Assembly: GCA_018815325.1 (NCBI GenBank)
Contig: JAHIYE010000009.1
Span: 1 to 64,000 of the forward strand
Origin: Gammaproteobacteria bacterium
GTDB taxonomy: Bacteria; Pseudomonadota; Gammaproteobacteria; Burkholderiales; Burkholderiaceae_C
Reading direction: 5' to 3'
DNA length: 64,000 nucleotides
The first letter of the stretch is position 1. Every line of letters begins with the position of its first letter. Under the pieces are notes generated by a model. It worked only from the letters and a program-made list of their open reading frames with translations, made no database searches and was not told the DNA's origin. Shown here piece by piece: positions 3,940-43,486 of the stretch. The translations under genes were made by a program, and so were the position numbers.

Positions 3940-5019
3940 TCAGACACGGTACCGATCGGTGGAGGCGCTCAACCTGGTTAGCACAGCCGGCGCGATCTCA
4001 GTCAGTGGCAAGACCTCATCAGCCGCTCCGTGTGCAATGGCTTCGCGTGGCATGCCAAACACGATACAGCTGGCTTCATCCTGCACATAGTTGTAGCTAC
4101 CTGCATCTTTCATTTCACGCATCGCCTTGGCACCATCATTGCCCATACCCGTCAGCATGATGCCCAGCGCATTGCGCCCCACGACCCGGGCAGCAGACTT
4201 GAACAACACTTCTACCGAGGGCTTGTGCCGGTTCACCAGCTCACCATCCTCGACCACGGCGACATAATTCGCACCACTGCGGTCAAGCCTGAATTGCTTA
4301 CCGCCGGGGGCAATATACGCATGTCCCGGCAGGATCCGCGCACCATTCACGGCCTCTTGCACCTTGATTTGGCACAGATTATTCAAACGCGCTGCAAAAC
4401 TGGTGGTAAATCCTGGTGGCATGTGCTGCGTGATTACGATCCCAGGTGAGTCTGCCGGTAAGCGAACCAATATTTCCTTGATCGCCTCCGTCCCCCCCGT
4501 TGAGGCCCCTATGCAAATCAATTTTTCAGTCGATAAGCGGCCTAAGGGTGTAAGTTCTGATCGAACCGGGATAACCCCATCCGCGGAGACCGAGGCTACA
4601 GGCGCCATGCGCTTGATCTGCGCTGATGCCGCTACGCGAACTTTATCCACAATCTGGGCCGACAACTCTTTAATGCCATCAGCCAAACCGATGCGCGGTT
4701 TCGCAACGAAGTCCACCGCACCCAACTCCAATGCCCGCATGGTGACTTCGGCGCCCCGTTCAGTCAATGTAGAAATCATGACCACAGGCATCGGCCTCAA
4801 ACGCATGAGTCGCCCCAGAAAGTCCAGGCCATCCATGCGAGGCATCTCGACGTCCAGGGTGATCACATCAGGATTGAGCTCCCGAATCATCTCCCGGGCC
4901 ACAAGCGGATCATTCGCCGTGCCTACACACTCCATATCACTCTGGCGATTGATGATTTCGGCCAGCAGGCTTCTGACCAAGGCCGAATCGTCGACCACTA
5001 TCACACGTATCTTCTTCAA
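3940..5019 (-). CDS. cheB: chemotaxis response regulator and protein-glutamate methylesterase CheB
   Basis: CheB removes methyl groups from, and deamidates, chemoreceptor glutamates. An N-terminal receiver domain carries acidic residues VVDDS and phospho-acceptor D56 in TLDVEMP. The C-terminal methylesterase shows the catalytic triad S173 (GASTGG), H199 (TQHMPPG) and D295 (TGMGNDG). I place the start at a TTG at 5019 because GAGGTAAT sits just ahead of it and the protein then begins directly with [15 protein letters not shown] at 5049 would overlap cheD and add ten non-conserved residues. cheB is the last gene of the chemotaxis operon, 7 bp after cheD. Confidence 0.95.
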
Positions 5020-5026
5020 AATTACC

Positions 5027-5731
5027 TCAGAACAGATCCACAGAGCCACCCGAAGTAGATTTCGCGACTACGGCAGCATTCCCGCGACGCTCCTCCACCG
5101 CCAAGGTCTCGGGATGAGAGTGCGCCAAGCGCTTGACCAGTGCTTTACCCGTTACAGGGAAGAAGCAAACTTTTCGGGGATGGATGTCCAGAACATCCTG
5201 CGAAACAACCGGAATTCGCTCAGTCTGCAAATAGTCAAGCACAAACTTGGTATTACGCTCCCCTACATTCATTGTAGTGAAACCGGCCATGACTTGAGCG
5301 CCGCCAAATATCTTCGCTTGCATCGACTCACGGCGTGCGCCCAGCTTGAGCATTTCATTGATCAACAACTCCATTGCATAAGAGCCGTAACGACCAAAAC
5401 CATCAGCATTGTCCCCGTCTGGCAACATGAAGTGATTCATGCCACCAGCACGAACCTTGCCGTCCCAGATGCACGCAGAAATACAGGACCCCAGCACCGT
5501 CATGACGACCAGATCCTCGGACGACACATAGTATTCACCAGGCAGAACCTTGACGGCGTCATATTGAAAATGATGGTCGTTGTAAAAGAACGATGCTTCC
5601 CCTGGCTTACGTGGTTGCGCCTTGAGTTGATCTACCCGTGAAACCCGCCCACTGGGTAAAACCTTGCCAGCCTGGAGGCTCTGATGCGGACGCGACATGG
5701 ACGAAGCAGCCTTAGATTCGAGCAGAGTCAT
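5027..5731 (-). CDS. cheD: chemoreceptor glutamine deamidase CheD
   Basis: CheD deamidates glutamines on chemoreceptors and can bind the CheY-P phosphatase CheC in other bacteria. The catalytic Cys83 lies in LGSCISAC and His100 in GGMNHFMLP, both in the conserved core (about 55-200). At 234 residues it is longer than the roughly 160-residue Bacillus and Thermotoga enzymes. It has a basic N-terminal extension of about 45 residues and a C-terminal tail ending in GGSVDLF. The same ending, GSVELF, occurs in the CheZ-like protein at 9760-10203, which hints at a shared docking peptide. It sits between cheR and cheB. Confidence 0.93.
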
Positions 5732-5757: not shown

Positions 5758-6651
5758 CTAACGACGCTCGTATACCGTTTTGCCGCGCAAGACGAACAGA
5801 TCACGCGACTCATTGAAGTTCTCTGAGTGCCCCACAAACAGTAGCCCTCCAGGCTTCATGACTCGGTGGATACGCTCCAGCACCTTGCGCTGCGTCTGCG
5901 CATCAAAGTAAATCATCACATTGCGACAAAACACCACATCGAAAGGATCTCGAAATGGCCAATCATCACGAATGAGATTCACACTCAAAAACTCAACAAA
6001 CCGTTGCAGTTCAGGCTTGACCCTCGCCATGCCCTCATTCGCCCCCTTGCCGCGCATGAAGTAGCGCTCCAGCTGCTCGGCATCAACACCTTTGATATTG
6101 TCCAGACGATACACGCCACGCGCAGCCGAAGCCAGCACTTTCGAATCAATATCACTGGCCCACAACTTGAAGTCCGCCTTCGCTCCAAGAACGTCTACAG
6201 CCGTCATGATGATGGAATAAGGCTCCTCTCCGGTTGAGGCAGCATTGCACCAAACTCGCCACGCCGTGTTAGCTGGTTTTGATTTCAGATGACTGGCAAG
6301 GATTTCGAAATGATGCTGCTCACGGAAAAAAGAAGTGAGATTGGTGGTCAACGCATTGATGAATTCCTGCCACTCAGGTCCATCATGCCCCTCCAACCAG
6401 CCAAGGTAGTCACGAAAACTTTGATAGCCTGTCTCACGCAAACGCCGTGACAGCCGGCTATAGACCATCGCATGTTTTCCATCGTGCAGATTGATGCCGG
6501 CACGCTGATAAATCAGCGTCTGCACCCGATCAAAATCAGCACTGGTCCATACAAACTCTCGTGCTTGATCACCACCTGTACCGACTTCAGATGCACCTCC
6601 TGCGAGGCCCTGTGCCGATGCCCACAAACTGCCTTGCTTACGCATAGTCAT
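5758..6651 (-). CDS. cheR: chemotaxis protein methyltransferase CheR
   Basis: SAM-dependent methyltransferase that methylates glutamates of chemoreceptors, opposing CheB. It is 297 residues, with an N-terminal helical CheR domain (about 30-95) and a C-terminal Rossmann catalytic domain. The SAM-binding region is visible as NAASTGEEPYS, followed by the DPFDVVFCRNVMIYF motif typical of CheR and the C-terminal GGLLFVGHSE. A poorly conserved, flexible stretch occupies the first 30 residues. No receptor gene is linked to this operon, so its substrates must be encoded elsewhere. Confidence 0.95.
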   Translation of the reverse strand: MTMRKQGSLWASAQGLAGGASEVGTGGDQAREFVWTSADFDRVQTLIYQRAGINLHDGKHAMVYSRLSRRLRETGYQSFRDYLGWLEGHDGPEWQEFINALTTNLTSFFREQHHFEILASHLKSKPANTAWRVWCNAASTGEEPYSIIMTAVDVLGAKADFKLWASDIDSKVLASAARGVYRLDNIKGVDAEQLERYFMRGKGANEGMARVKPELQRFVEFLSVNLIRDDWPFRDPFDVVFCRNVMIYFDAQTQRKVLERIHRVMKPGGLLFVGHSENFNESRDLFVLRGKTVYERR

Positions 6652-6686: not shown

Positions 6687-7175
6687 TTACTCCGGAATAG
6701 CTACCAACCCCATGTCAACACTTGACATGAGTTTTTCAATGTCCAAGAGAATCAACATTCGATCCCCCAGCGAACCGAGCCCCAGTACGGCACTGCTGTC
6801 AATCACGCTGTCGATCTCGGGCGCGGCCTTCAGGCTTTCAGGAGGAAGCTCCATCACGTCACTGACCGAATCCACCACAATCCCGACAATCCTGGTTCCC
6901 AGGTTAAGGATGATGACAACCGTGAAATCGTTGTACTCGGCCTTGGAGCAATTGAATTTCAGGCGCATGTCAACAATCGGAACTATCGTTCCGCGAAGAT
7001 TGACCACGCCTTTGATGAATTCAGGCACGTTCGCAATCCGGGTCGGCGGCTCGTAACCACGAATCTCCTGTACTTTCAGGATATCAATGCCGTACTCTTC
7101 CTGATCCAGTCTAAACGTCAGATATTCGCGTGCACCTGTGGCATTCATCTCGTCCATTTTTTCCATCGCTCCCAT
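6687..7175 (-). CDS. cheW: chemotaxis coupling protein CheW
   Basis: CheW bridges chemoreceptors and the kinase CheA in the signalling array. It is 162 residues and consists of one CheW domain. Conserved stretches include [20 protein letters not shown], the [19 protein letters not shown] segment and [23 protein letters not shown] sequence precedes the ATG. It lies 24 bp downstream of cheA and upstream of cheR in the same operon. Confidence 0.95.
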
Positions 7176-7199: not shown

Positions 7200-9314
7200 T
7201 TAGTGCCGCGAGCGGCGAACCAATGCGCCAGTATCCAGAATCAGGGCAACTTTGCCGTCCCCGAGAATCGTGGCACCCGATACGTTCGGTACCTTGCGAT
7301 AGTTCGATTCCAGGTTTTTCACCACCACCTGTTGCTGCCCCAGTAATTCATCAACAAGCAAGGCAACACGGCTGCCATCAAATTCAACGACGACCATGAT
7401 GTCGCTCGCCTTTTCCGAACCAAAGCGAGGGATCTGAAATACTTTTTCCAGTTCAATAACTGGCATGTATTCGTCGCGCACTTTGACCAACTGCGAGCCC
7501 TGCCCGACCGTACTAACGGCATCGGACTTGACCTGAAAAGACTCCACGACCGAAGACAGCGGCAACAAATACACCTCATTGCCCACACCAACCGACATGC
7601 CATCCATGATGGCCAGGGTCAGTGGCAGGCGCACAGCCACACGCATCCCAAAGCCTTCAGAAGACTCGATCTCCACCGTACCATTCAAGGCCGCGATGTT
7701 CTTCTTTACAACATCCATACCGACACCGCGACCGGACACATCCGTGACCACGGCTGCTGTAGAAAAACCCGGGGCGAAGATCAATTGCCAAACTTCCGAA
7801 TCAGGCATCTGATCCGAGACATCAAGACCTCGCTCACGCGCTTTCTCCAGAATTTTCTCTCGGGACAAGCCACGACCATCATCGCGGACCTCGATCACGA
7901 TAGAGCCCCCTTGGTGTGAGGCAGACAAGGTAATCGTGCCACTTTCAGGCTTGCCGGCGGCAACACGATCGGCCGGCATCTCAACTCCATGGTCACAGCT
8001 ATTGCGGACCAAATGTGTCAATGGATCGGTGATTTTCTCCACCAAGCCCTTGTCAAGCTCGGTCGCCTCACCCTGCGTCACGAACTCCACTTTTTTACCC
8101 AATTTCGAGGCAAGATCCCGCAACATCCTCGGGAAACGGCTGAACACGATAGACATCGGAATCATCCGGATCGACATCACCGACTCCTGCAAGTCGCGTG
8201 TATTGCGATCTAGGTCCGCCAATCCGGCGAGCAGTTGCTGGTAGACGGCTGGATCAAGTGCCCGGCTGTTCTGTGCCAGCATGGCCTGTGTAATGACCAA
8301 CTCCCCCACAAGGTTGATCAATTGATCAACCTTGCTGATTGCGACGCGAATGGTTGCCGCCTCGGGTTGAGCCGCAGGTGCAACAGGTTTGACTCCCGGC
8401 TTGGCCGTCGCTTTGGCTTCCGATGCTGAAGCAGGCGCCGTTGGTGCTCCGGGGGACCCATCGAAAAAGCCGAACCCTGGCAGCGGCGCCAATGGAGCAC
8501 CGGGCAGCGGATCATCATCATATGGATTGACAGCGGCGTCGGTGCCAACTTCTTTGATGACAATCTGATCTCTTGAAACATGAAATGCGAATAAATCCAG
8601 TAAATCGTCATCCGCAGAGTTGGTATCCACCTCGAAAACTCGGGTATCTGGCCGGTCGCTCACCGCATCCCGAATTTGTCCTAACCCTGCGATATCCCGG
8701 AACAGCTCTTTAATTGCATCGGCTTGTTCAGGTACTGTCAGGGGGCCAATGGCGATAACCAACGAGCGACTTGACTTGGGCCCTGCTGGAACAACAGGAG
8801 CGGCGACACTGACAGGCTGAGCAACTGGCGTCGGAGCAACCGCAGGAGCAGCAGGCACAGCAACAGACGCTGCAGGCGCCTCAATATGGGCGCCTCCCGA
8901 GGCTAACTCACTGATTCGACGCACCAGATCTGCCGTTGACGGCACCTCTCCTTCGCCACCCGCCTGATGTCTCGCCAGCAGACCTCTTGAGGCGTCTGCA
9001 GACTCCAGCAAGACATCAACCATCATGGCATTTGGCTGCAGTTCATGACGACGCAATTTGTCGAGCAAAGACTCCATCTGATGCGTCAGTTCAGCCACAT
9101 CAGAGAATCCGAACGTCGCGGCCCCGCCCTTAACTGAATGAGCACAGCGAAAAATGCCATTCAACTCTTCATCATCTGCGGCCTCAAGGTTCAAATTGAG
9201 CAGCATCTGCTCCATCAGATCCAGGTTTTCTGCTGCTTCTTCAAAGAAAATTTGATAGAACTGACTCAGGTCAAAATCACCTGCTCCGCCAGATTCCTGA
9301 TGCGTATCTGCCAT
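7200..9314 (-). CDS. cheA: chemotaxis histidine kinase CheA
   Basis: Central kinase of chemotaxis; it autophosphorylates and passes phosphate to CheY and CheB. Domains in order are P1 Hpt with H59 in CAHSVKGGAATF, a P2-like region (about 185-260), an Ala/Pro-rich linker, and the P3 dimerisation helices (about 330-395). The P4 ATPase domain has an N-box LVRNSCDHG and a G-box RDDGRG, with further glycine-rich motifs downstream. A P5 CheW-like domain forms the C-terminus. The start is ATG at 9314 with GGAG upstream; a TTG two codons earlier is less likely. The length (about 704) is normal for proteobacterial CheA with a long linker. Confidence 0.96.
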   Translation of the reverse strand: MADTHQESGGAGDFDLSQFYQIFFEEAAENLDLMEQMLLNLNLEAADDEELNGIFRCAHSVKGGAATFGFSDVAELTHQMESLLDKLRRHELQPNAMMVDVLLESADASRGLLARHQAGGEGEVPSTADLVRRISELASGGAHIEAPAASVAVPAAPAVAPTPVAQPVSVAAPVVPAGPKSSRSLVIAIGPLTVPEQADAIKELFRDIAGLGQIRDAVSDRPDTRVFEVDTNSADDDLLDLFAFHVSRDQIVIKEVGTDAAVNPYDDDPLPGAPLAPLPGFGFFDGSPGAPTAPASASEAKATAKPGVKPVAPAAQPEAATIRVAISKVDQLINLVGELVITQAMLAQNSRALDPAVYQQLLAGLADLDRNTRDLQESVMSIRMIPMSIVFSRFPRMLRDLASKLGKKVEFVTQGEATELDKGLVEKITDPLTHLVRNSCDHGVEMPADRVAAGKPESGTITLSASHQGGSIVIEVRDDGRGLSREKILEKARERGLDVSDQMPDSEVWQLIFAPGFSTAAVVTDVSGRGVGMDVVKKNIAALNGTVEIESSEGFGMRVAVRLPLTLAIMDGMSVGVGNEVYLLPLSSVVESFQVKSDAVSTVGQGSQLVKVRDEYMPVIELEKVFQIPRFGSEKASDIMVVVEFDGSRVALLVDELLGQQQVVVKNLESNYRKVPNVSGATILGDGKVALILDTGALVRRSRH

Positions 9315-9355
9315 ACCCAATTACTCCTTTATTAGCTGCTCTGTCAGCTATTGAT

Positions 9356-9718
9356 TCATCGAATCACTTTTTTGATGACATCCAGCAAGCGCGCTGGATC
9401 AAAAGGTTTAACGAGCCATCCCGTGGCGCCTGCAGCGCGGCCTGCCTGCTTCATTAAGTCACTGGATTCCGTGGTCAATACCAATATTGGAATGGTTTTG
9501 AATTGCGGGTGCTCGCGCAGCTTGCGCGTCAAACCCAGCCCATCCAGACGAGGCATGTTCTGATCGGTTAAAACCAAATCAAACGTCTGCTGTTGAGCCT
9601 TTTCGTAGGCATCTTGCCCATCTACCGCCTCCACCACCTGGTAACCGGCTCCTGTCAAGGTAAAAGAAACCATCTTGCGCATGGATGGTGAGTCATCGAC
9701 TGCGAGAATTAAAGGCAT
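9356..9718 (-). CDS. cheY: CheY-like single-domain response regulator
   Basis: Single receiver domain of 120 residues. Acidic pocket residues lie in AVDDS, phospho-acceptor D52 in LTDQNMP, the conserved threonine/serine in VLTTES and K104 in WLVKPF. It sits directly upstream of cheA and downstream of a CheZ-like gene, so it is probably a phosphorylation target of this CheA. A second CheY (42463-42852) resembles the E. coli motor-binding CheY more closely. This one may therefore be a phosphate sink or serve a different output; that split of roles is inference. Confidence 0.92.
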   Translation of the reverse strand: MPLILAVDDSPSMRKMVSFTLTGAGYQVVEAVDGQDAYEKAQQQTFDLVLTDQNMPRLDGLGLTRKLREHPQFKTIPILVLTTESSDLMKQAGRAAGATGWLVKPFDPARLLDVIKKVIR

Positions 9719-9759: not shown

Positions 9760-10203
9760 TCAAAACAGCTCGACTGAGCCCGCTTCCATTTCATCCTGTG
9801 TGACAGGGTTGGGACGCTCAGGAACATCTTCTACAAAAGGAAGCGCTTCGCCATCCTCCAGCCCCATCGACTCAGAAGCCAGCCGATAAGCGCAACCTTG
9901 AAGGATTTTTGATGTGTGATTGATCAATTGCGACGCCATGTCCTGGAATTGCAACTCCGTAACTGCCGCACGCAAAGCGCTGCGCACGCCATCGAGCTCT
10001 TTCGCATCTGCCAAGCCTGGATCGGCCAAGTTCGCACTGGCGCTGGTGAACCGTTGCATCAGGTTCTCCATCGTATGTGCCAACAGGCCATCAAGCCGAT
10101 TCAGATCATGCACAACCACAAGCAGAGAGTCCTGAACATCCGCCACAAGCATTACAGGCAATTGAACGGCAGGCACAGTTGTCATTGTCGATGTTGGTTG
10201 CAT
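9760..10203 (-). CDS. CheZ-like protein, candidate CheY-P phosphatase
   Basis: Small helical protein (147 residues from the ATG at 10203, with GGAG sequences just upstream). The helix containing LQFQDMASQLI carries an Asp-x3-Gln pair (D88 and Q92). This matches the spacing of the catalytic Asp and Gln in CheZ (compare FHDLTGQVI in the true CheZ at 42857). The acidic tail ends in GSVELF, reminiscent of the CheY-binding C-terminal peptide of CheZ. It is the first gene of the cheY-cheA operon. Overall similarity to CheZ is low, so this could also be another chemotaxis scaffold protein. The gene call is firm; the function is inferred. Confidence 0.75.
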   Translation of the reverse strand: MQPTSTMTTVPAVQLPVMLVADVQDSLLVVVHDLNRLDGLLAHTMENLMQRFTSASANLADPGLADAKELDGVRSALRAAVTELQFQDMASQLINHTSKILQGCAYRLASESMGLEDGEALPFVEDVPERPNPVTQDEMEAGSVELF

Positions 10204-10426: not shown

Positions 10427-11515
10427 ATGCTACGAATTCTGCACCTTGAGGACTCCGACCTGGATCACGAGCTGGTGCAGCTATCACTGCGCAAATCAGG
10501 ACTCGAGTTCAGCATGGATCGAGTGGAAACCCTTGTCGAGTTTCGCCTACAAATCGAAAAATTCGCATTTGACGTCATCCTTGCCGACTATCGCTTGCCC
10601 GGATTTACTGCACTTGATGCGTGGGAGGCCTTGTCTGACCAGTCGCACCGGCCGCCGTTCATCCTGCTGTCAGGCGCGATCGGCGAGTCCGCAGCGGTAG
10701 CCGCGATCAAGCTCGGAATGAGCGACTACCTGCTCAAGGATGACACTGCCAAACTTGCACAAGTGATTCGCCGAGCGATTGAGGTGCAAGATGCCCGACG
10801 TGCAAAGGAAAAGGCCGACGCTGAGCTTGCCGCATCAGAGCGTCGCCTGGCCAACTTCGCTGAACATTTGCAATCCACCATCGAGCAAGAACGTGCTGCG
10901 ATAGCCAGGGAAATTCATGACGATATTGGAGGCGCACTGGCAGCGGTCAAACTGGATCTTTCCTGGATCGAGCGCCATACATCTGATCCCGTTACCCAAA
11001 GTCATATTGATGCAGCGACCGAAATGCTTCAGCATGCCTTAGGTGCCAGCCAACGCATCATGATGAACTTGCGTCCAGCGATCCTTGACCAAGGACTCGA
11101 GGCTGCCGTTTATTGGCTGGCTGGCAGCTTCGAAAAGCGCACCGGCATTCGTACGGCCTTCAGAGCTAATCTCGCCAAAGAGGTTATCTCCAAGGAGGTA
11201 CAGCTGACCGCCTACCGCACTGCACAAGAAGCCCTGACCAACATCTCCAAGTACGCACAGTGTGATCAGGTCACAATAGACCTTACTGATGCGGAGGATG
11301 TTTTGACACTTGAGGTTTCAGATAATGGGATTGGAATTACCCCATCCAACCTGGACAAGGCCAAGGCGTTTGGACTGAAAGGCTTGAGCGAGCGCGCCAA
11401 GTCTGTGGGTGGCTGGTTAGACGTCAGTTGTCCAAGCGGCATAGGCACCTCTATCATCTTGTCTGTCCCATTGACCCCCGTACCTTTGCAGAATAACCAG
11501 GATACCTTTCAATGA
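10427..11515 (+). CDS. receiver-histidine kinase hybrid (NarX/HisKA_3 type)
   Basis: Cytoplasmic sensor kinase of 362 residues with no membrane segment. The N-terminal receiver domain (about 3-120) has phospho-acceptor D54 in LADYRLPG. A coiled-coil linker follows. The HisKA_3 dimerisation domain has H164 in AREIHDDIGG. The ATPase domain carries the N-box-like AQEALTNISKYA, VSDNGIG and FGLKGLSERA. The receiver-first order means the input is another kinase rather than a ligand domain. It overlaps the next gene by 4 bp (ATGA), so the two are translated together. The target genes are not evident; position between che and fli operons suggests a role in motility control, which is inference. Confidence 0.9.
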   Translation: MLRILHLEDSDLDHELVQLSLRKSGLEFSMDRVETLVEFRLQIEKFAFDVILADYRLPGFTALDAWEALSDQSHRPPFILLSGAIGESAAVAAIKLGMSDYLLKDDTAKLAQVIRRAIEVQDARRAKEKADAELAASERRLANFAEHLQSTIEQERAAIAREIHDDIGGALAAVKLDLSWIERHTSDPVTQSHIDAATEMLQHALGASQRIMMNLRPAILDQGLEAAVYWLAGSFEKRTGIRTAFRANLAKEVISKEVQLTAYRTAQEALTNISKYAQCDQVTIDLTDAEDVLTLEVSDNGIGITPSNLDKAKAFGLKGLSERAKSVGGWLDVSCPSGIGTSIILSVPLTPVPLQNNQDTFQ

Positions 11516-12141
11516 TTCGAGTTGTTCTTTGTGATGACCATGCCGTGGTGCGCCGCGGAATCCGTGACACACTCTCCGAAGCCGTCGACATTCAGGTTGT
11601 CGCTGAAGCAGGAAGCTACGCCGAAGTGCGTGAGGTATTACGATCTAACCCCTGTGATGTGCTTGTCCTTGACATCAATCTGCCAGGCAGGGGCGGCATG
11701 GAGGTATTAGCCAGCCTGCGCGAATCCGAATCCCCCACCAAAGTACTGATGGTTTCCATGTTCCCCGAGGATCAATATGCCATTCGTTGCCTGCGCGCCG
11801 GGGCGCAAGGCTATCTGAACAAAGCAGGCGATCCTGACAATCTGATCAATGCCGTACGTACCATTGCGCAGGGACGGAAATATGTCACCGCAGAAGTATC
11901 ACAAATGCTGGTGGAAAGTCTTTCCTCACCGACTGATTTGGCGCTACACGCATCACTTTCTGAACGTGAGCTTCAAACCTTGCTAAAAATTGCATCCGGC
12001 AAGCGCCTTTCAGAAATTGCAGAAGAGTTGATGCTCAGCCCCAAAACGGTCAGTGTCTATCGCTCACGCGTCTTGGAAAAACTCAAGCTATCGAATAATG
12101 CGGAGCTGACCGTATACGCCATACGCAACGAACTGGTTTAG
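11512..12141 (+). CDS. NarL/FixJ-family response regulator
   Basis: DNA-binding regulator of 209 residues. The receiver domain has CDDH near the N-terminus and phospho-acceptor D54 in VLDINLPG. The C-terminal LuxR-type helix-turn-helix (about 148-200) shows LSERELQTL and the recognition helix region LSPKTVSVYRSRVLEKL. It is translationally coupled to the hybrid kinase just upstream and is its probable partner. It converges on fliR with a 14-bp gap. Confidence 0.93.
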   Translation: MIRVVLCDDHAVVRRGIRDTLSEAVDIQVVAEAGSYAEVREVLRSNPCDVLVLDINLPGRGGMEVLASLRESESPTKVLMVSMFPEDQYAIRCLRAGAQGYLNKAGDPDNLINAVRTIAQGRKYVTAEVSQMLVESLSSPTDLALHASLSERELQTLLKIASGKRLSEIAEELMLSPKTVSVYRSRVLEKLKLSNNAELTVYAIRNELV

Positions 12142-26249: not shown

Positions 26250-27017
26250 TTAACGCAACAAGGCGAGAACACCCTGTGGACCTTGATTGGCCTGCGCCAC
26301 CATGGCCGTACCCGCTTGCTGGAGCACTTGCGCACGTGACAGATTCGCTGTCTCCATGGCGTAGTCAGCATCCATGATACGACCACGAGCAGCCGAGAAA
26401 TTCTCTGCCCCCACGCGCAGATTGGCCACCACTGACTCAAAACGATTCTGTGTAGCACCCCAGGTTGCACGCACGGCGTTGATAGCCGTGATATCGGCAT
26501 CAGCAGTCGCAATGCTCAGCGTGCCTGCAGCCGACGTTTGCGAAGCAGCTGTGGTCGTAACCGTGATGGTATCAGCGGTATTGGCCCCAACCTGAAAGGT
26601 CGAAGAGACTGCTGCCATCAAGTTCACACCATTGAAACTTGTGCCACCAATGATTCGGGTATTTTCCGCCTGGAGCAGTCCCCACTCAGCCGTCAGCGCC
26701 GTGGTGTTCGCACCAGCATTGGCACCCTGCACAGCCAATTCACGCATACGCTGCAGGTTGTTAGCGATGGTGCCGAGTGCGCCGTCAGCAGTTGCCGCCA
26801 TGGAGATAGCATCATTCGCATTGCGAATGGCCACATTCATGCCGCGGGCTTGTGCCTCCAGGCCGGCTGCAATTGCCATGCCGGCGGCATCGTCTTTGGC
26901 GCTGTTGACACGCAAGCCTGAAGACAGACGCGCCATGGCAGACTGCAGGGAAACACCGGTATTTGCCAGCCAGCGTTGGCCAGTCATCGATGCAACGTTT
27001 GTATTGATACTAGACAT
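26250..27017 (-). CDS. fliC: flagellin (minus-strand copy)
   Basis: Filament subunit of 255 residues. It consists of the conserved D0/D1 N-terminus (MSSINTNVAS, then RLSSGLRVNSAKDDAAG) and the C-terminus (ANLSRAQVLQQAGTAMVAQA), with only a short Ala/Thr-rich middle. It thus lacks the outer D2/D3 domains. The D0 segment SMTGQRWLANTGVSLQ departs from the usual SLNAQRNL pattern kept in the plus-strand flagellin. The ATG at 27017 with AAAGGAGC upstream is the real start. It has a sigma-28-like promoter and a strong terminator. Confidence 0.95.
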   Translation of the reverse strand: MSSINTNVASMTGQRWLANTGVSLQSAMARLSSGLRVNSAKDDAAGMAIAAGLEAQARGMNVAIRNANDAISMAATADGALGTIANNLQRMRELAVQGANAGANTTALTAEWGLLQAENTRIIGGTSFNGVNLMAAVSSTFQVGANTADTITVTTTAASQTSAAGTLSIATADADITAINAVRATWGATQNRFESVVANLRVGAENFSAARGRIMDADYAMETANLSRAQVLQQAGTAMVAQANQGPQGVLALLR

Positions 27018-27151
27018 TTGAAGCTCCTTTAAAGCTAAGTTAATCCGGCATTCCTGCCATGCCCCTCCAGCCCTGCTGATAGGATTAGACCGGGACGCCC
27101 CCATGGCACCAGCCGGACGACGAGCCCTAGTTGAAGAACCCGTTGGATTAG

Positions 27152-27178
27152 CTTTCGGCCAAAATTGCTGGAAACTTA
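27152..27178 (-). promoter_or_regulatory. sigma-28 promoter of minus-strand flagellin
   Basis: TAAG (27178-27175) and GCCGAAAG (27159-27152) on the minus strand are 15 bp apart. The -35 region reads TTAAGTTT, close to TAAAGTTT. The leader to the flagellin ATG would be about 130 nt. Confidence 0.65.
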
Positions 27179-27255
27179 AGGGCTAATTGAAATTCTCAGC
27201 CCCGAAACATCGGAATTAACCCGCTTTCCCCGCTTTTATCTGGCAAACAAGAAGT

Positions 27256-27282
27256 TCAAGTTTCTTCAGAATTTGCTGACCG
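27256..27282 (+). promoter_or_regulatory. possible sigma-28 promoter of plus-strand flagellin
   Basis: TCAA (27256-27259), within TCAAGTTT, is followed after 15 bp by GCTGACCG (27275-27282). The -35 and spacing match the other flagellar late promoters here; the -10 is weak (four of eight). It would start about 70 nt before the flagellin ATG. Confidence 0.5.
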
Positions 27283-27356
27283 TGTACTTAAGTCGGCGCA
27301 GGAGCTGACACCATCGGGGATTAGCCCGGAACTACTCAGCTTTAAAGGAGCTACAA

Positions 27357-28160
27357 ATGGCAGCATCGATCAACACCAACGTCGCTTCGTTGAATGCGCA
27401 GCGCAACCTGTCGACATCATCCAGCTCTCTGCAGACATCCATGCAGCGGCTGTCTTCAGGCTTGCGTGTCAACAGCGCCAAAGACGATGCCGCCGGCCTT
27501 GCCATTGCCGAGCGCATGGACACTCAGACCCGCGGCATGAATGTGGCCATTCGCAATGCGAATGATGCTATATCCATGGCACAAACAGCGGAGGGTGCAC
27601 TGGGCGCCATCTCCTCGAATTTACAACGCATGCGCGAACTCGCGGTACAAGGCGCCAACGGTACAAACACCGGCGCCGATCTCGCCTCGCTGGATGCTGA
27701 ATATGTGCTCCTTGCTGCAGAAAACACCCGGATTCTCAGCTCCACAAAATTCAACGGTGTATCGGTCCTGGCTGCTGTGAGCTCACAATTCCAAGTAGGT
27801 GCCAATGCAGGAGATGTGATCACTGTGTCTGTCGGCGCTGCCAGTCAGACAGCAACGACCCTGGGCTCCACAAATGCAACAGCCTCGGCACAGTTAACGG
27901 CGATTGATACCGACATCAACACCATGACAACGATTCGCGCTACCTGGGGTGCCTCACAAAACCGCTTTGAGCAAGTTATCGCCAACTTGCGCGTCGGCGC
28001 CGAAAACTCTGCCGCGGCACGTGGACGCATCGTTGATGCCGACTACGCCATGGAAACGGCAAACCTCTCACGCTCGCAAATCTTGCAGCAAGCAGGAACG
28101 GCAATGGTTGCTCAAGCGAATCAGCTGCCCCAAGGCGTACTGGCACTTTTACGCCAATAA
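27357..28160 (+). CDS. flagellin (plus-strand copy)
   Basis: Filament subunit of 267 residues with canonical D0/D1 ends (INTNVASLNAQRNL; SSGLRVNSAKDDAAGLAIAE; C-terminal RSQILQQAGTAMVAQANQ). The central region is short and rich in Ala, Ser and Thr, offering many hydroxyl residues for O-glycosylation. It is about as long as the minus-strand copy but closer to the family consensus, so it may be the main subunit. GGAGCTACAA precedes the ATG. The gene is followed at once by two GT41 glycosyltransferase genes on the same strand. Confidence 0.95.
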   Translation: MAASINTNVASLNAQRNLSTSSSSLQTSMQRLSSGLRVNSAKDDAAGLAIAERMDTQTRGMNVAIRNANDAISMAQTAEGALGAISSNLQRMRELAVQGANGTNTGADLASLDAEYVLLAAENTRILSSTKFNGVSVLAAVSSQFQVGANAGDVITVSVGAASQTATTLGSTNATASAQLTAIDTDINTMTTIRATWGASQNRFEQVIANLRVGAENSAAARGRIVDADYAMETANLSRSQILQQAGTAMVAQANQLPQGVLALLRQ

Positions 28161-28286
28161 TCTAGATATCGGCCTTCTCCTGACTAAATTTAGTCCAATT
28201 TGTTCGGAAGGGTATTTGTATTTGCCCGTCTGATGCGTGTGGTTTCAGCTCCATGCATCCGGCTTTGACCCTCATTGATAGCGCAC

Positions 28287-30254
28287 ATGCCACGATCTTC
28301 TGCACTTGCTAATGGCTCACGTGAGAAGGAGATTAACAGCATTCTTCGCTTGTACAAGAAGGCGCAGTATGGTTCGGCTGAAATACGGATACTCAAGCTA
28401 CTGCGACAATGCCCCGAATTTGGCCTGGGCTGGAAAGTCAAGGGGCTTGTCCTGCAGGCACTTGGGCGTTTGGATGAGTCATTACAGGCCAAGATAAAGG
28501 CCGTCGAGCTTCTACCGCATGACTGGGAAGCCCACTTCAATCTCGGTTATGCCTACCAATTGCAAGGAGCTCCGGCCAAAGCAGTGGAAAGCTACTCCAA
28601 GGGCCTGACCATCAATCCCCATCATGCAGATGCCTACAACAATATGGCAAATGCGCTCAAGCAGCTTGGTCAACTCAAGGACGCCGAGTTGATATGCAAG
28701 CAGGCACTTGCCATTCAGCCGAACATGGCAAATGCCCATCAGAATCTAGGAAATATCTATCACGCACAAGACAAGTGGCTCCAAGCCGTGGGCTCGTATC
28801 ACGAGTCTCTCAAGCTCAGACCAGACTGGGCTGAAGCCCATAGCAATCTGGCCATTAGTTTGCAATACCTAGGACTGACACCCGAGTCTGCACACCACTT
28901 TCGAAAAGCACTGGAACTTCGCCCGGATTGGGACGCAGCTCACAGCAATCTGCTTTTTTCCCTCAGTCATGATGTCATGCTTGACGCCCAAGCCATATTT
29001 GCAGAACACTTGGCATTTGGCGAGCGATTCGAAGCGCCCCTGCGCCCAAGTTGGCGCCCGCATGAAAACAGCAAAGATCCTCATCGAATACTCAAAATAG
29101 GCATCGTTTCGGGTGATCTATACCACCATGCTATTGCCAACTTCCTGGAGCCCGTACTCAAGCATTTATCCCGCTCCAAGTCCCTTTCACTCCACGCCTA
29201 TTACACAAACACGATTAACGACAATGTGACCATACGCCTTCGGGGCTATTTCCCGCATTGGCATGCCATAGCCCATTTGTCGGCGGCGAACTTGGCGGAT
29301 CAAATTCGCTCCGATGGCATTGACATCCTGATAGACCTTTCTGGTCACACTGCCCACAACCGTCTTCTTGCTTTCGCCAGAAAACCTGCCCCTATTCAGG
29401 CAAGTTGGATGGGCTACCCTGGAACGACAGGACTGCAGGCGATGGACTACCACTTCTGCGACCATTTTTGGATACCCCCTCAACTGGGCTGGCAATTTAC
29501 GGAGAAATCAGTTCTATTGCCTGTTTCGGCCATTTTCCTGCCTAGCGAACACGCTCCGGCTATCAATGTGCTGCCCGCCAAGGAAAAAGGCTACATCACA
29601 TTCGCCAGTTTTAACCGGCCCAACAAAATCAATGACTCTGTCATTGCACTGTGGTCAATGCTTTTGCGTGGCCTACCCAATTCCAGAATGTTGCTGGGAT
29701 CCATATCTCCAGATCGTCAGCACGCGCTAATTGAATGTTTTTCCCGGCAAGGCATCGAGCCGGACCGGCTGATTTTTTATCCCCGGCTATCGATGCAAGA
29801 CTACCTGGGCTTGCATCATCAGATCGATATCTGCCTGGACACCTTTCCCTACAGCGGAGGCACCACGATCCATCATGCGGCATGGATGGGCGTGCCCACT
29901 CTGACTCTGGCTGGCGAAACCCCAACAAGCCGCGCAGGAGCTGCTGAAATGCACTTTTGGGGACTGGATGATTTCATCGCATCAAGCATTGAGGAGTTCA
30001 TCAACAAGGGACTATTCTGGGCTGAAAATCTCACCTCGCTGGCTGATATCCGCGCCAACATGCGGGCACGGCTTGAAGCCTCCCCCTTGGGCCAACCCGC
30101 TGTGTATGCCGCCAGCCTTGAGGCCGCATTTCGTGCCATATGGCAGCGATGGTGCAATGACTTGCCCGCCGCACTTATTGATACGCTACATGGTGATGAA
30201 TCATCCGCTGCGCTATCAGTTGAAAACACCCAATCCCCAATTGAAACAAGCTGA
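28287..30254 (+). CDS. TPR and GT41 (O-GlcNAc transferase-like) protein, first copy
   Basis: Protein of about 655 residues. An N-terminal array of five or six tetratricopeptide repeats (about 10-225) is followed by a SPINDLY/OGT-type catalytic region. Its key marks are IVSGDLYHHAIANFLEPVL, the DLSGHTAHNRLLAFARKPAP block running into QASWMGYPGTTG, and HHAAWMGVPTLTLAGETPTS (about 530). Family members transfer a sugar from a nucleotide donor to Ser/Thr. Place next to a flagellin suggests flagellin as acceptor, which is inference. Start uncertain: ATG at 28287 or an upstream TTG at 28275, neither with a clear ribosome-binding site. Its stop overlaps the start of a paralogue. Confidence 0.88.
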   Translation: MPRSSALANGSREKEINSILRLYKKAQYGSAEIRILKLLRQCPEFGLGWKVKGLVLQALGRLDESLQAKIKAVELLPHDWEAHFNLGYAYQLQGAPAKAVESYSKGLTINPHHADAYNNMANALKQLGQLKDAELICKQALAIQPNMANAHQNLGNIYHAQDKWLQAVGSYHESLKLRPDWAEAHSNLAISLQYLGLTPESAHHFRKALELRPDWDAAHSNLLFSLSHDVMLDAQAIFAEHLAFGERFEAPLRPSWRPHENSKDPHRILKIGIVSGDLYHHAIANFLEPVLKHLSRSKSLSLHAYYTNTINDNVTIRLRGYFPHWHAIAHLSAANLADQIRSDGIDILIDLSGHTAHNRLLAFARKPAPIQASWMGYPGTTGLQAMDYHFCDHFWIPPQLGWQFTEKSVLLPVSAIFLPSEHAPAINVLPAKEKGYITFASFNRPNKINDSVIALWSMLLRGLPNSRMLLGSISPDRQHALIECFSRQGIEPDRLIFYPRLSMQDYLGLHHQIDICLDTFPYSGGTTIHHAAWMGVPTLTLAGETPTSRAGAAEMHFWGLDDFIASSIEEFINKGLFWAENLTSLADIRANMRARLEASPLGQPAVYAASLEAAFRAIWQRWCNDLPAALIDTLHGDESSAALSVENTQSPIETS

Positions 30255-32284
30255 TGTCCCGCCCCCATCTATCTTCCCGAAACGATCCACCGCCCAGAGA
30301 GCTTGAGCGCCTTGCCAAGCTCTTCGGCCAGCAACATCTGGATCAAGCAGAGGCGTTGTCTCTTACTTTAACGAGTCAATACCCCAGGCATCCTTTTGGA
30401 TGGAAAGTGTTGGGGGCCGTTTACCAGGCGCAATCGCGACTTGACGACTCCTTGGCGGCCACTCAGAAAGCAATCCGCTTGCAACCAGGTGACGCCGCGC
30501 TGCATAACAATCTGGGCACATCCTTATTGGCCCTTGACCGTCTTGATGAAGCCGAAGTCTGCCTACGTACTGCTTTGTCAATCGCACCCGACTATGCAAA
30601 AGCCCTCAATAATTTGGCCGGGCTGCTAAAACTCAACAAACAATTAGCGGAAGCCGAGCGCCTTTGTCGCCGTGCTTTGGAAATTGAGCCGGGCTATGCC
30701 AAAGCTCACTTCAACCTCGCCAAGATACTGGAAGCCAAAGGGGAAATTCCAGCGGCTATCGCAAACCTGCGTCGTGCCGTTGACCTCAACCCCGATGACA
30801 TGGACTCACTGATATGTTTGTGTGAACTCCTCAAGCAGCATGATGCACTTTCTGTAGCGCAATCCTTCTATCGAAAAGCGCTTGATAGAAACCCGACCAA
30901 TCCCAGCCTCAATAACAATTACGGAAGTATTTTGAAGGATGAGGGAAAGCTTGCAGAAGCACAACTCTGCTTTCGCAAGGCCCTGGAGTCACGACCTGAC
31001 TGGGCGTTCACTCATAGCAACTTGCTCTTCTGCCTCAGCCATGATGTCATGCTCGACCCCAGCGCCCTATTCGCCGAGCACCTTGCATTTGGTGAGCTCT
31101 TTGAAGCCCCTCTGCGCCCTAGTTGGAAGCCACATCGCAATACAAAAGACCCCACCCGCCAACTCCAAATAGGCATTGTGTCAGGTGACTTTTGCAACCA
31201 TGCGATTGCGAGTTTTCTCGAACCTGTGCTCAGATATCTGCGCGACTACAACTCTCTGTCACTCCACGCTTATTACACGCATACCGCTAAAGATGACGTA
31301 ACAGAGAGAATTCGTACTTATTTCGCAAATTGGCACGACGTGGCCTACTTGAACGAATCCGAATTGGCCGATCACATCCGCACCGATGGCATAGATATTT
31401 TGCTCGATCTATCTGGCCATACGGCTCACAACCGCTTGCTCACCTTCGCCAGAAAGCCGGCTCCCATCCAGGCCAGTTGGATGGGATATCCTGGTACTAC
31501 GGGGCTGCAGGCCATGGACTACCATTTCTGTGATCACTTCTGGATACCTCCCGGCAAGATGGACTGGCAATTCACCGAGAAGTCAGCCTTCTTGCCCGTA
31601 TCGGCCATTTTCCAGCCTGATCAACAGGCCCCAGATATCCATGCTTTGCCAGCACAAAAAAATGGCTACATTACTTTTGGAAGCTTTAACAGGACGAGCA
31701 AACTCAATACCTCTGTGATTGCCTTGTGGTCCATCCTTCTGCGCAGCATCCCGAACGCCAGAATGGTGCTGGGATCCATACCACTGGATCGCCAAGACGC
31801 GTTAATAGCAAGTTTTTCCCAAGAAGGCATTCTTCGCGATCGACTGGTTTTTTATCCTCGCCTGCCAATGCAGGACTACCTGGGTCTTCACCACCAGGTT
31901 GATATCTGCCTTGACACCTTCCCCTATAGCGGAGGAACCACAATCCATCATGCTGCATGGATGGGCGTTCCCACCCTGACATTGGCTGGCGACACCCCAG
32001 CCAGTCGCGCAGGCGCCTCTGAAATACACTTTTGGGGACTCGATGAATTCATCGCGACAAGCATCGAAGAGTTCATCAGCAAGGGGCTGTTCTGGGCCGC
32101 GAATCTGAACTCGCTGGCCGAGATTCGCGCCAGTATGCGCGCACGTCTTGCTGCCTCACCCATAGGGCAACCCCAACTATATGCAGACAGCATTGAGGCC
32201 ACATTGCGCACAATGTGGCAGCGTTGGTGCAATGACCTTCCACCCGCACTTATTGACGTTGAGACAGGCAACTCTACCGGTTAA
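30254..32284 (+). CDS. TPR and GT41 (O-GlcNAc transferase-like) protein, second copy
   Basis: Paralogue of the preceding gene, 676 residues. It has the same plan: TPR repeats (about 10-245) and a GT41 catalytic region with IVSGDFCNHAIASFLEPVL, DLSGHTAHNRLLTFARKPAP and HHAAWMGVPTLTLAGDTPAS. Long stretches of the catalytic half are identical in both copies, while the TPR half differs far more. This points to tandem duplication followed by change in acceptor recognition. The ATG overlaps the upstream TGA (TGATG), so translation is coupled. Flagellin glycosylation is the likely role, by context. Confidence 0.9.
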   Translation: MSRPHLSSRNDPPPRELERLAKLFGQQHLDQAEALSLTLTSQYPRHPFGWKVLGAVYQAQSRLDDSLAATQKAIRLQPGDAALHNNLGTSLLALDRLDEAEVCLRTALSIAPDYAKALNNLAGLLKLNKQLAEAERLCRRALEIEPGYAKAHFNLAKILEAKGEIPAAIANLRRAVDLNPDDMDSLICLCELLKQHDALSVAQSFYRKALDRNPTNPSLNNNYGSILKDEGKLAEAQLCFRKALESRPDWAFTHSNLLFCLSHDVMLDPSALFAEHLAFGELFEAPLRPSWKPHRNTKDPTRQLQIGIVSGDFCNHAIASFLEPVLRYLRDYNSLSLHAYYTHTAKDDVTERIRTYFANWHDVAYLNESELADHIRTDGIDILLDLSGHTAHNRLLTFARKPAPIQASWMGYPGTTGLQAMDYHFCDHFWIPPGKMDWQFTEKSAFLPVSAIFQPDQQAPDIHALPAQKNGYITFGSFNRTSKLNTSVIALWSILLRSIPNARMVLGSIPLDRQDALIASFSQEGILRDRLVFYPRLPMQDYLGLHHQVDICLDTFPYSGGTTIHHAAWMGVPTLTLAGDTPASRAGASEIHFWGLDEFIATSIEEFISKGLFWAANLNSLAEIRASMRARLAASPIGQPQLYADSIEATLRTMWQRWCNDLPPALIDVETGNSTG

Positions 32285-42462: not shown

Positions 42463-42852
42463 ATGGCCAATGAACTTCGTTTTTTAGTCGTTGACGACTT
42501 CTCCACCATGCGGCGGATCGTACGGAACTTGCTCAAAGAAATCGGTTTTACCGAAGCCGACGAAGCTGAGGATGGTGTTGTTGCCTTGGCGAAACTGCGA
42601 TCCAGCAAGTTTGACTTCGTGGTCAGCGACATCAACATGCCCAACATGAACGGCTTTCAGTTGCTGGCCGAAGTCAAGAAGGATGAAAAACTCAAGCACA
42701 TTCCGGTTTTGATGGTGACCGCTGAGGCACGCAAGGAGGACATTGTGCTTGCGGCGCAGCAGGGTGCGGCCGGCTACATCGTAAAACCCTTCACCAAAGC
42801 GACGCTCGAAGACAAATTACTCCACATTCTCAAGAAAACAGGATTGCAGTAA
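42463..42852 (+). CDS. cheY: chemotaxis response regulator CheY
   Basis: Single receiver domain of 129 residues, the same length as E. coli CheY and very close to it in sequence. D56 ([12 protein letters not shown]) is phosphorylated, D11/D12 form the acidic pocket, and K108 ([12 protein letters not shown]) is the conserved lysine. It should bind FliM's N-terminal peptide and reverse the motor. It is followed by cheZ after 4 bp. Confidence 0.96.
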
Positions 42853-42856
42853 TCTC

Positions 42857-43486
42857 ATGCAGGCGAGCGACATGACACAAAATCCAGATGGCTCCTCACC
42901 CGATGTGCACCAGAAAATCGGGCTTTTGACGCGTCAATTGCACGATTCCCTCAGCGGTCTTGGATTAACTGAGAAAGTGCAAAGCTGGGCTGGAGAAATC
43001 CCGGACGCCAAGAGCAGGCTGTCATATATCGCAAGGCTCACTGGAGAGGCCGCCGAAAAGGTTCTCAATCGCGTGGATCAGGCCAAAAGCGCTGATGACC
43101 ACATCGCTGCAGAGACCAGGCGCATCACGGCACTGATTGTTCAGGACCCTGTTGCGGCTGTGGCCAAAGGGCATGTCATGAACTTCCTGACCGACGTTGA
43201 GCAGTCAACCAAGGAAATCGACCAGCATCTGACCGAGATCATGATGGCACAGGATTTTCATGATTTAACCGGTCAGGTCATTGCTAAAGTAGTCAGTCTG
43301 GCAGCTTCTATCGAGGAGCAACTGGTTCAATTGTTGATCCAAACCGCGCCGCCAGAAAGCATCAAACCCGTACCAACCGAATACAAGCCGGCACTGGCTG
43401 GCCCTGTTGTCGATGTGGCCGGGAATCCTGATGTTGTCACCGATCAATCCCAGGTTGACGATCTCCTCGCCAGTCTCGGCTTTTGA
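42857..43486 (+). CDS. cheZ: protein phosphatase CheZ
   Basis: CheY-P phosphatase of 209 residues, a long four-helix-bundle hairpin dimer. The catalytic Asp and Gln are D136 and Q140 in AQDFHDLTGQVI. The C-terminal CheY-binding helix VDDLLASLGF is complete. It pairs with the adjacent cheY. Confidence 0.95.
   Translation: MQASDMTQNPDGSSPDVHQKIGLLTRQLHDSLSGLGLTEKVQSWAGEIPDAKSRLSYIARLTGEAAEKVLNRVDQAKSADDHIAAETRRITALIVQDPVAAVAKGHVMNFLTDVEQSTKEIDQHLTEIMMAQDFHDLTGQVIAKVVSLAASIEEQLVQLLIQTAPPESIKPVPTEYKPALAGPVVDVAGNPDVVTDQSQVDDLLASLGF

Follow-up and report, generated by a model that had tools for sequence, protein, structure and literature searches.

A small DxxxQ protein encoded ahead of cheY in Burkholderiales: a putative CheY phosphatase resembling CheT and CheZ but belonging to neither family

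In E. coli, Lys92 of CheY pairs with the Asp of CheZ. For Sinorhizobium, the 2024 work of Agbekudzi is said to point to CheY1 as the single CheY on which CheT acts. CheT has a DxxxQ motif and a predicted CheZ-like structure, discriminates between two CheYs and binds CheR (review, PMC12654446). The Gln of DxxxQ has the same catalytic role in the HisKA_3 kinases (PMC5231405). We analysed a 64,000-nucleotide stretch of DNA from a member of the Burkholderiales (the window), in which a preliminary description made from the letters alone had pointed out a second CheZ-like phosphatase beside a first cheY. The protein in question, here called P0001, lies among the following genes.

3940..5049, minus strand: cheB, an open reading frame named by sequence and gene order; its true start is probably inside this frame
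5027..5731, minus strand: cheD, an open reading frame with the C-terminus GGSVDLF, a tail of the P0001 type
5758..6651, minus strand: cheR, an open reading frame named by sequence and gene order
6687..7175, minus strand: cheW, an open reading frame named by sequence and gene order
7200..9320, minus strand: cheA, named by sequence; found after cheY in 79 named loci
9356..9718, minus strand: cheY of the P0001 operon, the proposed substrate (Response_reg, E 1.2e-28)
9760..10203, minus strand: P0001, a 147-aa DxxxQ protein; open frame, stop at 9760-9762, GGAG before the ATG
42463..42852, plus strand: a second cheY, of motor type, partner of CheZ (Response_reg, E 2.3e-29; surface K92, I95, A99, Y106)
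42857..43486, plus strand: canonical cheZ (Pfam CheZ, E 6.7e-62; PDB 1kmi, E 2.6e-33)

The open reading frame that had been placed at 9760-10203 exists, on the minus strand (the strand had gone unstated, and the plus strand is not open), and its translation runs from the ATG at 10203 to 9763. It was rightly described as a small protein ahead of cheY-cheA, being the first gene of an operon that continues with cheY-cheA-cheW-cheR-cheD-cheB; the full CheZ announced at 42857 is likewise borne out, downstream of the second cheY. Divergent from P0001, between the che and the flagellar genes, the window encodes a receiver plus HisKA_3-like kinase (REIHDDIGG) and a NarL-type regulator (10427-12141, plus strand). 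At 26250-32284, two flagellin-like genes in opposite directions are followed by two large TPR proteins resembling OGT-type glycosyltransferases, and flagellin glycosylation is possible there.

D88 and Q92 of P0001 are where the preliminary description had put them, in LQFQDMASQLI. The DxxxQ spacing alone is no evidence, because it is carried by 52% of all proteins predicted in the window and in 80 related loci (527 of 1021). The longer F[QH]DxxxQ is found in 56 of the same 1021, which are the P0001 orthologues and the window CheZ and nothing else; within the window it is limited to P0001 and CheZ. It is conservation that is the real evidence for the motif. D88 and Q92 are invariant among 25 orthologues, at identities down to 44%, as are Q85 and F86; also kept in these are a helix 1 pattern (A21, Q24, D25, L27, D33, L34, R36, L37, L40, L48) and the tail (P131-N-P-V-x-Q-x-E, G142, L146, F147). 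As a control for circularity, we used a profile with the eight motif columns masked (E<1e-3), the locus pool itself having come from unmasked searches. D and Q are present in all 74 of the loci matched in this way, and Q85, D88 and Q92 alone are invariant among them, the residues in between varying freely. Even divergent copies found by position still have the D and the Q (LQSHDLVNQ in L231, LQFGDLVSQ in L166), as does a plasmid copy in Comamonadaceae OTU4NAUVB1 (L236:3408-3869), with the diverged module LQSEDALVQ and the tail GSIDLF. This plasmid copy is annotated as hypothetical and is followed by a response regulator and a CheA-like gene.

P0001 was rejected as a member of the CheZ family. 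It has no match in Pfam or NCBIfam; in a profile search against CheZ (PF04344), neither P0001 (at E 1) nor any of the 25 family members matched. Similarity between P0001 and the window CheZ is not detectable beyond chance, and the direct comparison of the 25-orthologue profile with CheZ is not significant. A profile of 23 receptor tails found only via P0001 does match 28 of 31 CheZ (E<1e-3, with a median of 2e-5; hhalign 79%), while none of the 31 reversed CheZ, of the genome's ordinary receptors or of the remaining open reading frames of the window is matched. When the eight residues of the motif were masked in both, the similarity was gone (hhalign P 1%, 0 of 31 CheZ by HMM), and since masking traces the match to the motif, we claim no homology to CheZ. 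The PDB profile matches of A1 and A2 are coiled-coil noise, 1kmi appearing only at E 0.43, yet in register. CheC, CheX and FliY gave no Pfam match either, and the P0001 model is all-helical, not an alpha/beta fold. To judge from these comparisons, P0001 and CheZ have in common the motif, its helix and the layout, for which homology is possible and convergence equally so.

This layout is seen in an AlphaFold2 model of P0001 built with 25 sequences, the parts of which are encoded as follows.

10027..10155, minus strand: helix 1 of the hairpin, residues 17-59 (pLDDT about 80-97)
9868..9999, minus strand: helix 2, residues 69-112, bearing D88 and Q92 (pLDDT mostly 80-97)
9922..9954, minus strand: LQFQDMASQLI, residues 84-94, with D88 at 9940-9942 and Q92 at 9928-9930; Q85, D88 and Q92 unchanged in all 74 loci
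9799..9867, minus strand: flexible linker, residues 113-135; no helix predicted, lowest pLDDT (residues 119-130 under 50)
9763..9816, minus strand: C-terminal peptide RPNPVTQDEMEAGSVELF, residues 130-147, kept in orthologues; fused receptors terminate in it too

A short C-terminal helix (136-141) is also predicted. By the same method, the window CheZ has helices 49-96 and 100-163, a linker and a helix 197-206, so that hairpin, linker and C-terminal helix are common to both models. The preliminary description had named, as what would speak against a phosphatase, an Asp and a Gln that were buried or off one helix face. By the hydrophobic moment, from which we judged exposure rather than from coordinates, D88 lies 146 and Q92 174 degrees from the core centre (172 and 148 in CheZ), which would place both on the exposed face of the second hairpin helix, as in CheZ, so that this objection is not borne out. 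A Foldseek search with the P0001 model returned generic helical hairpins only; this says nothing for or against, because a control search with the model of a true CheZ also missed 1kmi in the top 50.

P0001 is single copy in its own genome. Among 61 related genomes searched, orthologues were found in 25 of the 37 belonging to the same family, named relatives being Rhodoferax, Curvibacter, Hylemonella and Acidovorax, which assigns the window to the Comamonadaceae. An orthologue of the adjacent CheY (at least 77% identity) is present in exactly the same 25, and both genes are absent from all of the remaining 12. The cheY gene directly follows the module in 25 of 25 genomes; in 79 of 80 named loci it comes 20-126 bases after the module and is followed by cheA, the 80th locus ending at a contig end. 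At least 557 candidate stretches for a P0001-type gene were found in one scan. A P0001 query against plasmids and a CheY 9356 query against viral contigs gave no match. One exception to the linkage is L230 (G040), where a module-type CheY stands with neither module nor receptor, flanked by unrelated genes. A Rhodoferax-like che operon also occurs in a genome bin labelled Akkermansia muciniphila (L079), probably through an error of binning or labelling.

The CheYs linked to the module form a surface class of their own. In 55 of them we found K95, R99 or K99, and W106, and in nearly all an acidic residue, Asp or Glu, at 92, the position of Lys in E. coli CheY; the CheZ-linked CheY 42463 has K92, I95, A99 and Y106. 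The module-linked CheYs retain N59, E89, T87 and K109. A. fabrum CheY1 has S, A, K, R, W and V at the equivalent sites, including K91, R95 and W102 (PMC8225110), and these three residues are those of the module-linked class. S. meliloti CheY1, 48% identical to CheY 9356, has been called a phosphate sink (PMC8429497). By analogy, CheY 9356 may have this role or that of a side branch; CheY 42463 would be the one that regulates the motor, with CheZ as its phosphatase. That P0001 is a divergent true CheZ, dephosphorylating both CheYs and partly duplicating the function of the CheZ at 42857, would account for the F[QH]DxxxQ context and the bundle layout that the two have in common. It is made very unlikely by the outcome of masking, by the family match of 0 among 25 members, by a similarity to the window CheZ not beyond chance, and by the linkage to one CheY subtype only. 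Moreover, one genome (L245, G267:C20) has a canonical CheZ gene immediately ahead of the module, within one operon; CheZ and module are kept side by side, and thus are not substitutes.

Outside its own family, the P0001 profile matches the C-terminal ends of receptor-like proteins of 380-550 aa across the Burkholderiales, and a profile built from such receptor tails finds further ones throughout the class. These fused proteins carry [LM]QF[QEH]DxxxQ and end 42-85 residues further on, commonly in NPVxQxxMxxGxIELF. Split in three, P0001 aligns collinearly with them: its two helices fall on either side of the signalling domain, helix 1 first, and its tail at the very end. The match survives motif masking (1e-10). 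Since the three pieces match in order, P0001 has the appearance of a receptor stalk and tail deprived of the signalling tip. P0001 is not among the 18 matches of its own genome to the PF00015 signalling domain, though its helices match receptor stalks. In the Burkholderiales the gene next to the fused form nearly always encodes a CheY that is 57-70% identical to CheY 9356 and 30-38% to the CheZ-linked CheY, and the CheY tree has one change between solo and fused, in either direction (support 77). We found no name for these proteins with their C-terminal DxxxQ and -ELF/-TFF tails, and no receptor-fused CheZ-like domain turned up in our searches of the literature. They have the same module in stalk and tail and the same adjoining CheY; they differ from P0001 by the signalling domain between the two helices and by N-terminal hydrophobic segments, both of which P0001 lacks. 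Within the class there are also receptor-like proteins of a second kind (L182-L192), marked by LQFQDRxxQ and -FF tails; their genes precede that of another CheY type, 38-48% identical to CheY 9356. One might tentatively propose that the fused form is a receptor-like protein with its own CheY phosphatase in the stalk, where the state of the receptor could gate dephosphorylation, and that solo P0001 is that stalk without the tip.

The same alignment lends itself to a different reading, in which P0001 serves the receptor array as a structural or targeting component, a tipless stalk that pairs with receptors or gathers CheY, CheD or CheR, and whose DxxxQ helix docks CheY without catalysis. The ordered, masking-robust match to receptor stalk and tail is what such a part would give, and the tail is common to CheD; but Q85, D88 and Q92 as the only invariant residues, amid others that vary, make a catalytic rather than a packing pattern, and both the D and the Q point outwards. 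We regard this reading as unlikely.

The tail itself, MEAGSVELF, is acidic, as the preliminary description had it, but its value as CheZ-like evidence is weakened: a plain CheY-binding peptide is an improbable reading of it, because the CheD of the operon has the same tail type. Set side by side, the P0001 peptide is RPNPVTQDEMDAGSIELF and CheD ends GGSVDLF. Among the CheDs of named loci, picked by tail pattern, 62 of 62 have the ending of the window CheD. CheDs of distant module operons end GDIELFG, QVELF, AVELF, EVELFG, DVELFT and DIELF, and that of S. meliloti SPIEFF, whereas the receptors of those distant operons end DWEEF, DWAEF, EWQEF, SWEEF, NWQEF and DWQEF. The likeness of the tail to CheZ tails (shuffle P 0.02), which would have made it CheZ/FliM-like, was dropped as the main reading once the same tail was found on CheD. 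That P0001 and CheD share a peptide unlike the receptor tether suggests one docking partner for both; candidates are CheR, CheB, CheA and CheY. Were adaptation the main job of P0001, the tail would mimic the receptor pentapeptide and recruit CheR or CheB, the DxxxQ part being secondary. The tail, PHI-[ED]-x-F-COOH, is indeed in register with the W-E-x-F tethers of receptors, and CheT is reported to bind CheR (PMC12654446). We hold this to be quite improbable: receptors of the same operons keep the [DNES]W-x-EF tether while module and CheD have G-x-[IV]-[ED]-L-F, which suggests another partner, and the longer conservation NPVxQxxM is left unexplained.

From the conservation, the layout, the linkage, the separate CheY types and the solo and receptor-fused occurrence, all of them observed, we infer the activity, substrate and tail partner of P0001. 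What stands of the proposed CheZ-like phosphatase is that a CheY phosphatase for the first cheY is still the best reading, in view of the invariant, outward-facing D and Q, the layout and the CheY linkage; what does not stand is that it is a CheZ, for want of a family match, of similarity after masking and of Lys92 in its CheY. We thus think it reasonably likely that P0001 is a CheT-like DxxxQ phosphatase of phosphorylated CheY, acting on the CheY encoded next to it, and probably a second, separate off-switch for CheY. P0001 would fold as a hairpin of two antiparallel helices and, like CheZ, presumably dimerise into a four-helix bundle. From the outward side of helix 2, D88 and Q92 would reach into the phosphorylated site of CheY, the Gln positioning the attacking water as in CheZ. 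The C-terminal peptide, on its flexible linker, would dock P0001 to a partner, likelier an adaptation or array component (CheR, on the precedent of CheT) than CheY alone, because this peptide also closes the CheD of the operon. The canonical CheZ would act on the other, motor-type CheY.

If this is true, each CheY has a separate off-switch of its own in bacteria that possess two CheYs, a widespread nameless gene gains a testable function, and the precedent of CheT is extended from the rhizobia to the Burkholderiales. The receptor-fused form would let a single protein both control the kinase and terminate the signal, and the tail common to P0001 and CheD points to a new docking site. Should the proposed reading of the fused form hold, then CheZ, CheT and the P0001 module would fall into a single mechanistic class, that of the helical-bundle phosphatases with DxxxQ, with each of the three matched to a CheY of one surface type.

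P0001 would thus work like CheZ and CheT and yet belong to neither family, a view we hold with somewhat more belief than doubt as regards phosphatase action on its own CheY. With the HisKA_3 sensor kinases (NarX, DesK) it has the DxxxQ phosphatase motif in common, but it lacks the phosphoacceptor His region and the ATPase domain. CheZ (PF04344; E. coli, PDB 1kmi) resembles it in the FQDxxxQ on the outer face of the second hairpin helix, the flexible linker and the C-terminal peptide ending in Phe; P0001 differs in having no family match, no N-terminal region, a similarity limited to the motif, a partner CheY without Lys92 and a tail common to CheD. In S. meliloti, the plasmid record gives the operon cheY1-cheA-cheW-cheR-cheB-cheY2-cheD, and the next protein, annotated as hypothetical, has LQGIDLAVQ and ends AGDFEAF; from gene order and the DxxxQ motif we take it to be CheT. 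Sequence homology of P0001 with this CheT was rejected, the similarity not being significant (hhalign E 0.21; 15 of 2865 scored shuffles reach the HMM score) and the D and Q being out of register. The CheT gene is last in its operon and the P0001 gene first, and S. meliloti has no CheZ whereas the P0001 genome does. Nevertheless, the CheT of Sinorhizobium meliloti and Agrobacterium fabrum is, like P0001, a small helical DxxxQ protein (LQGIDLAVQ against LQFQDMASQ) of a che operon with cheD, with a comparable C-terminus (AGDFEAF against AGSVELF) and a CheY of the same surface class alongside. CheT would be the closest functional parallel of P0001, closer than CheZ.
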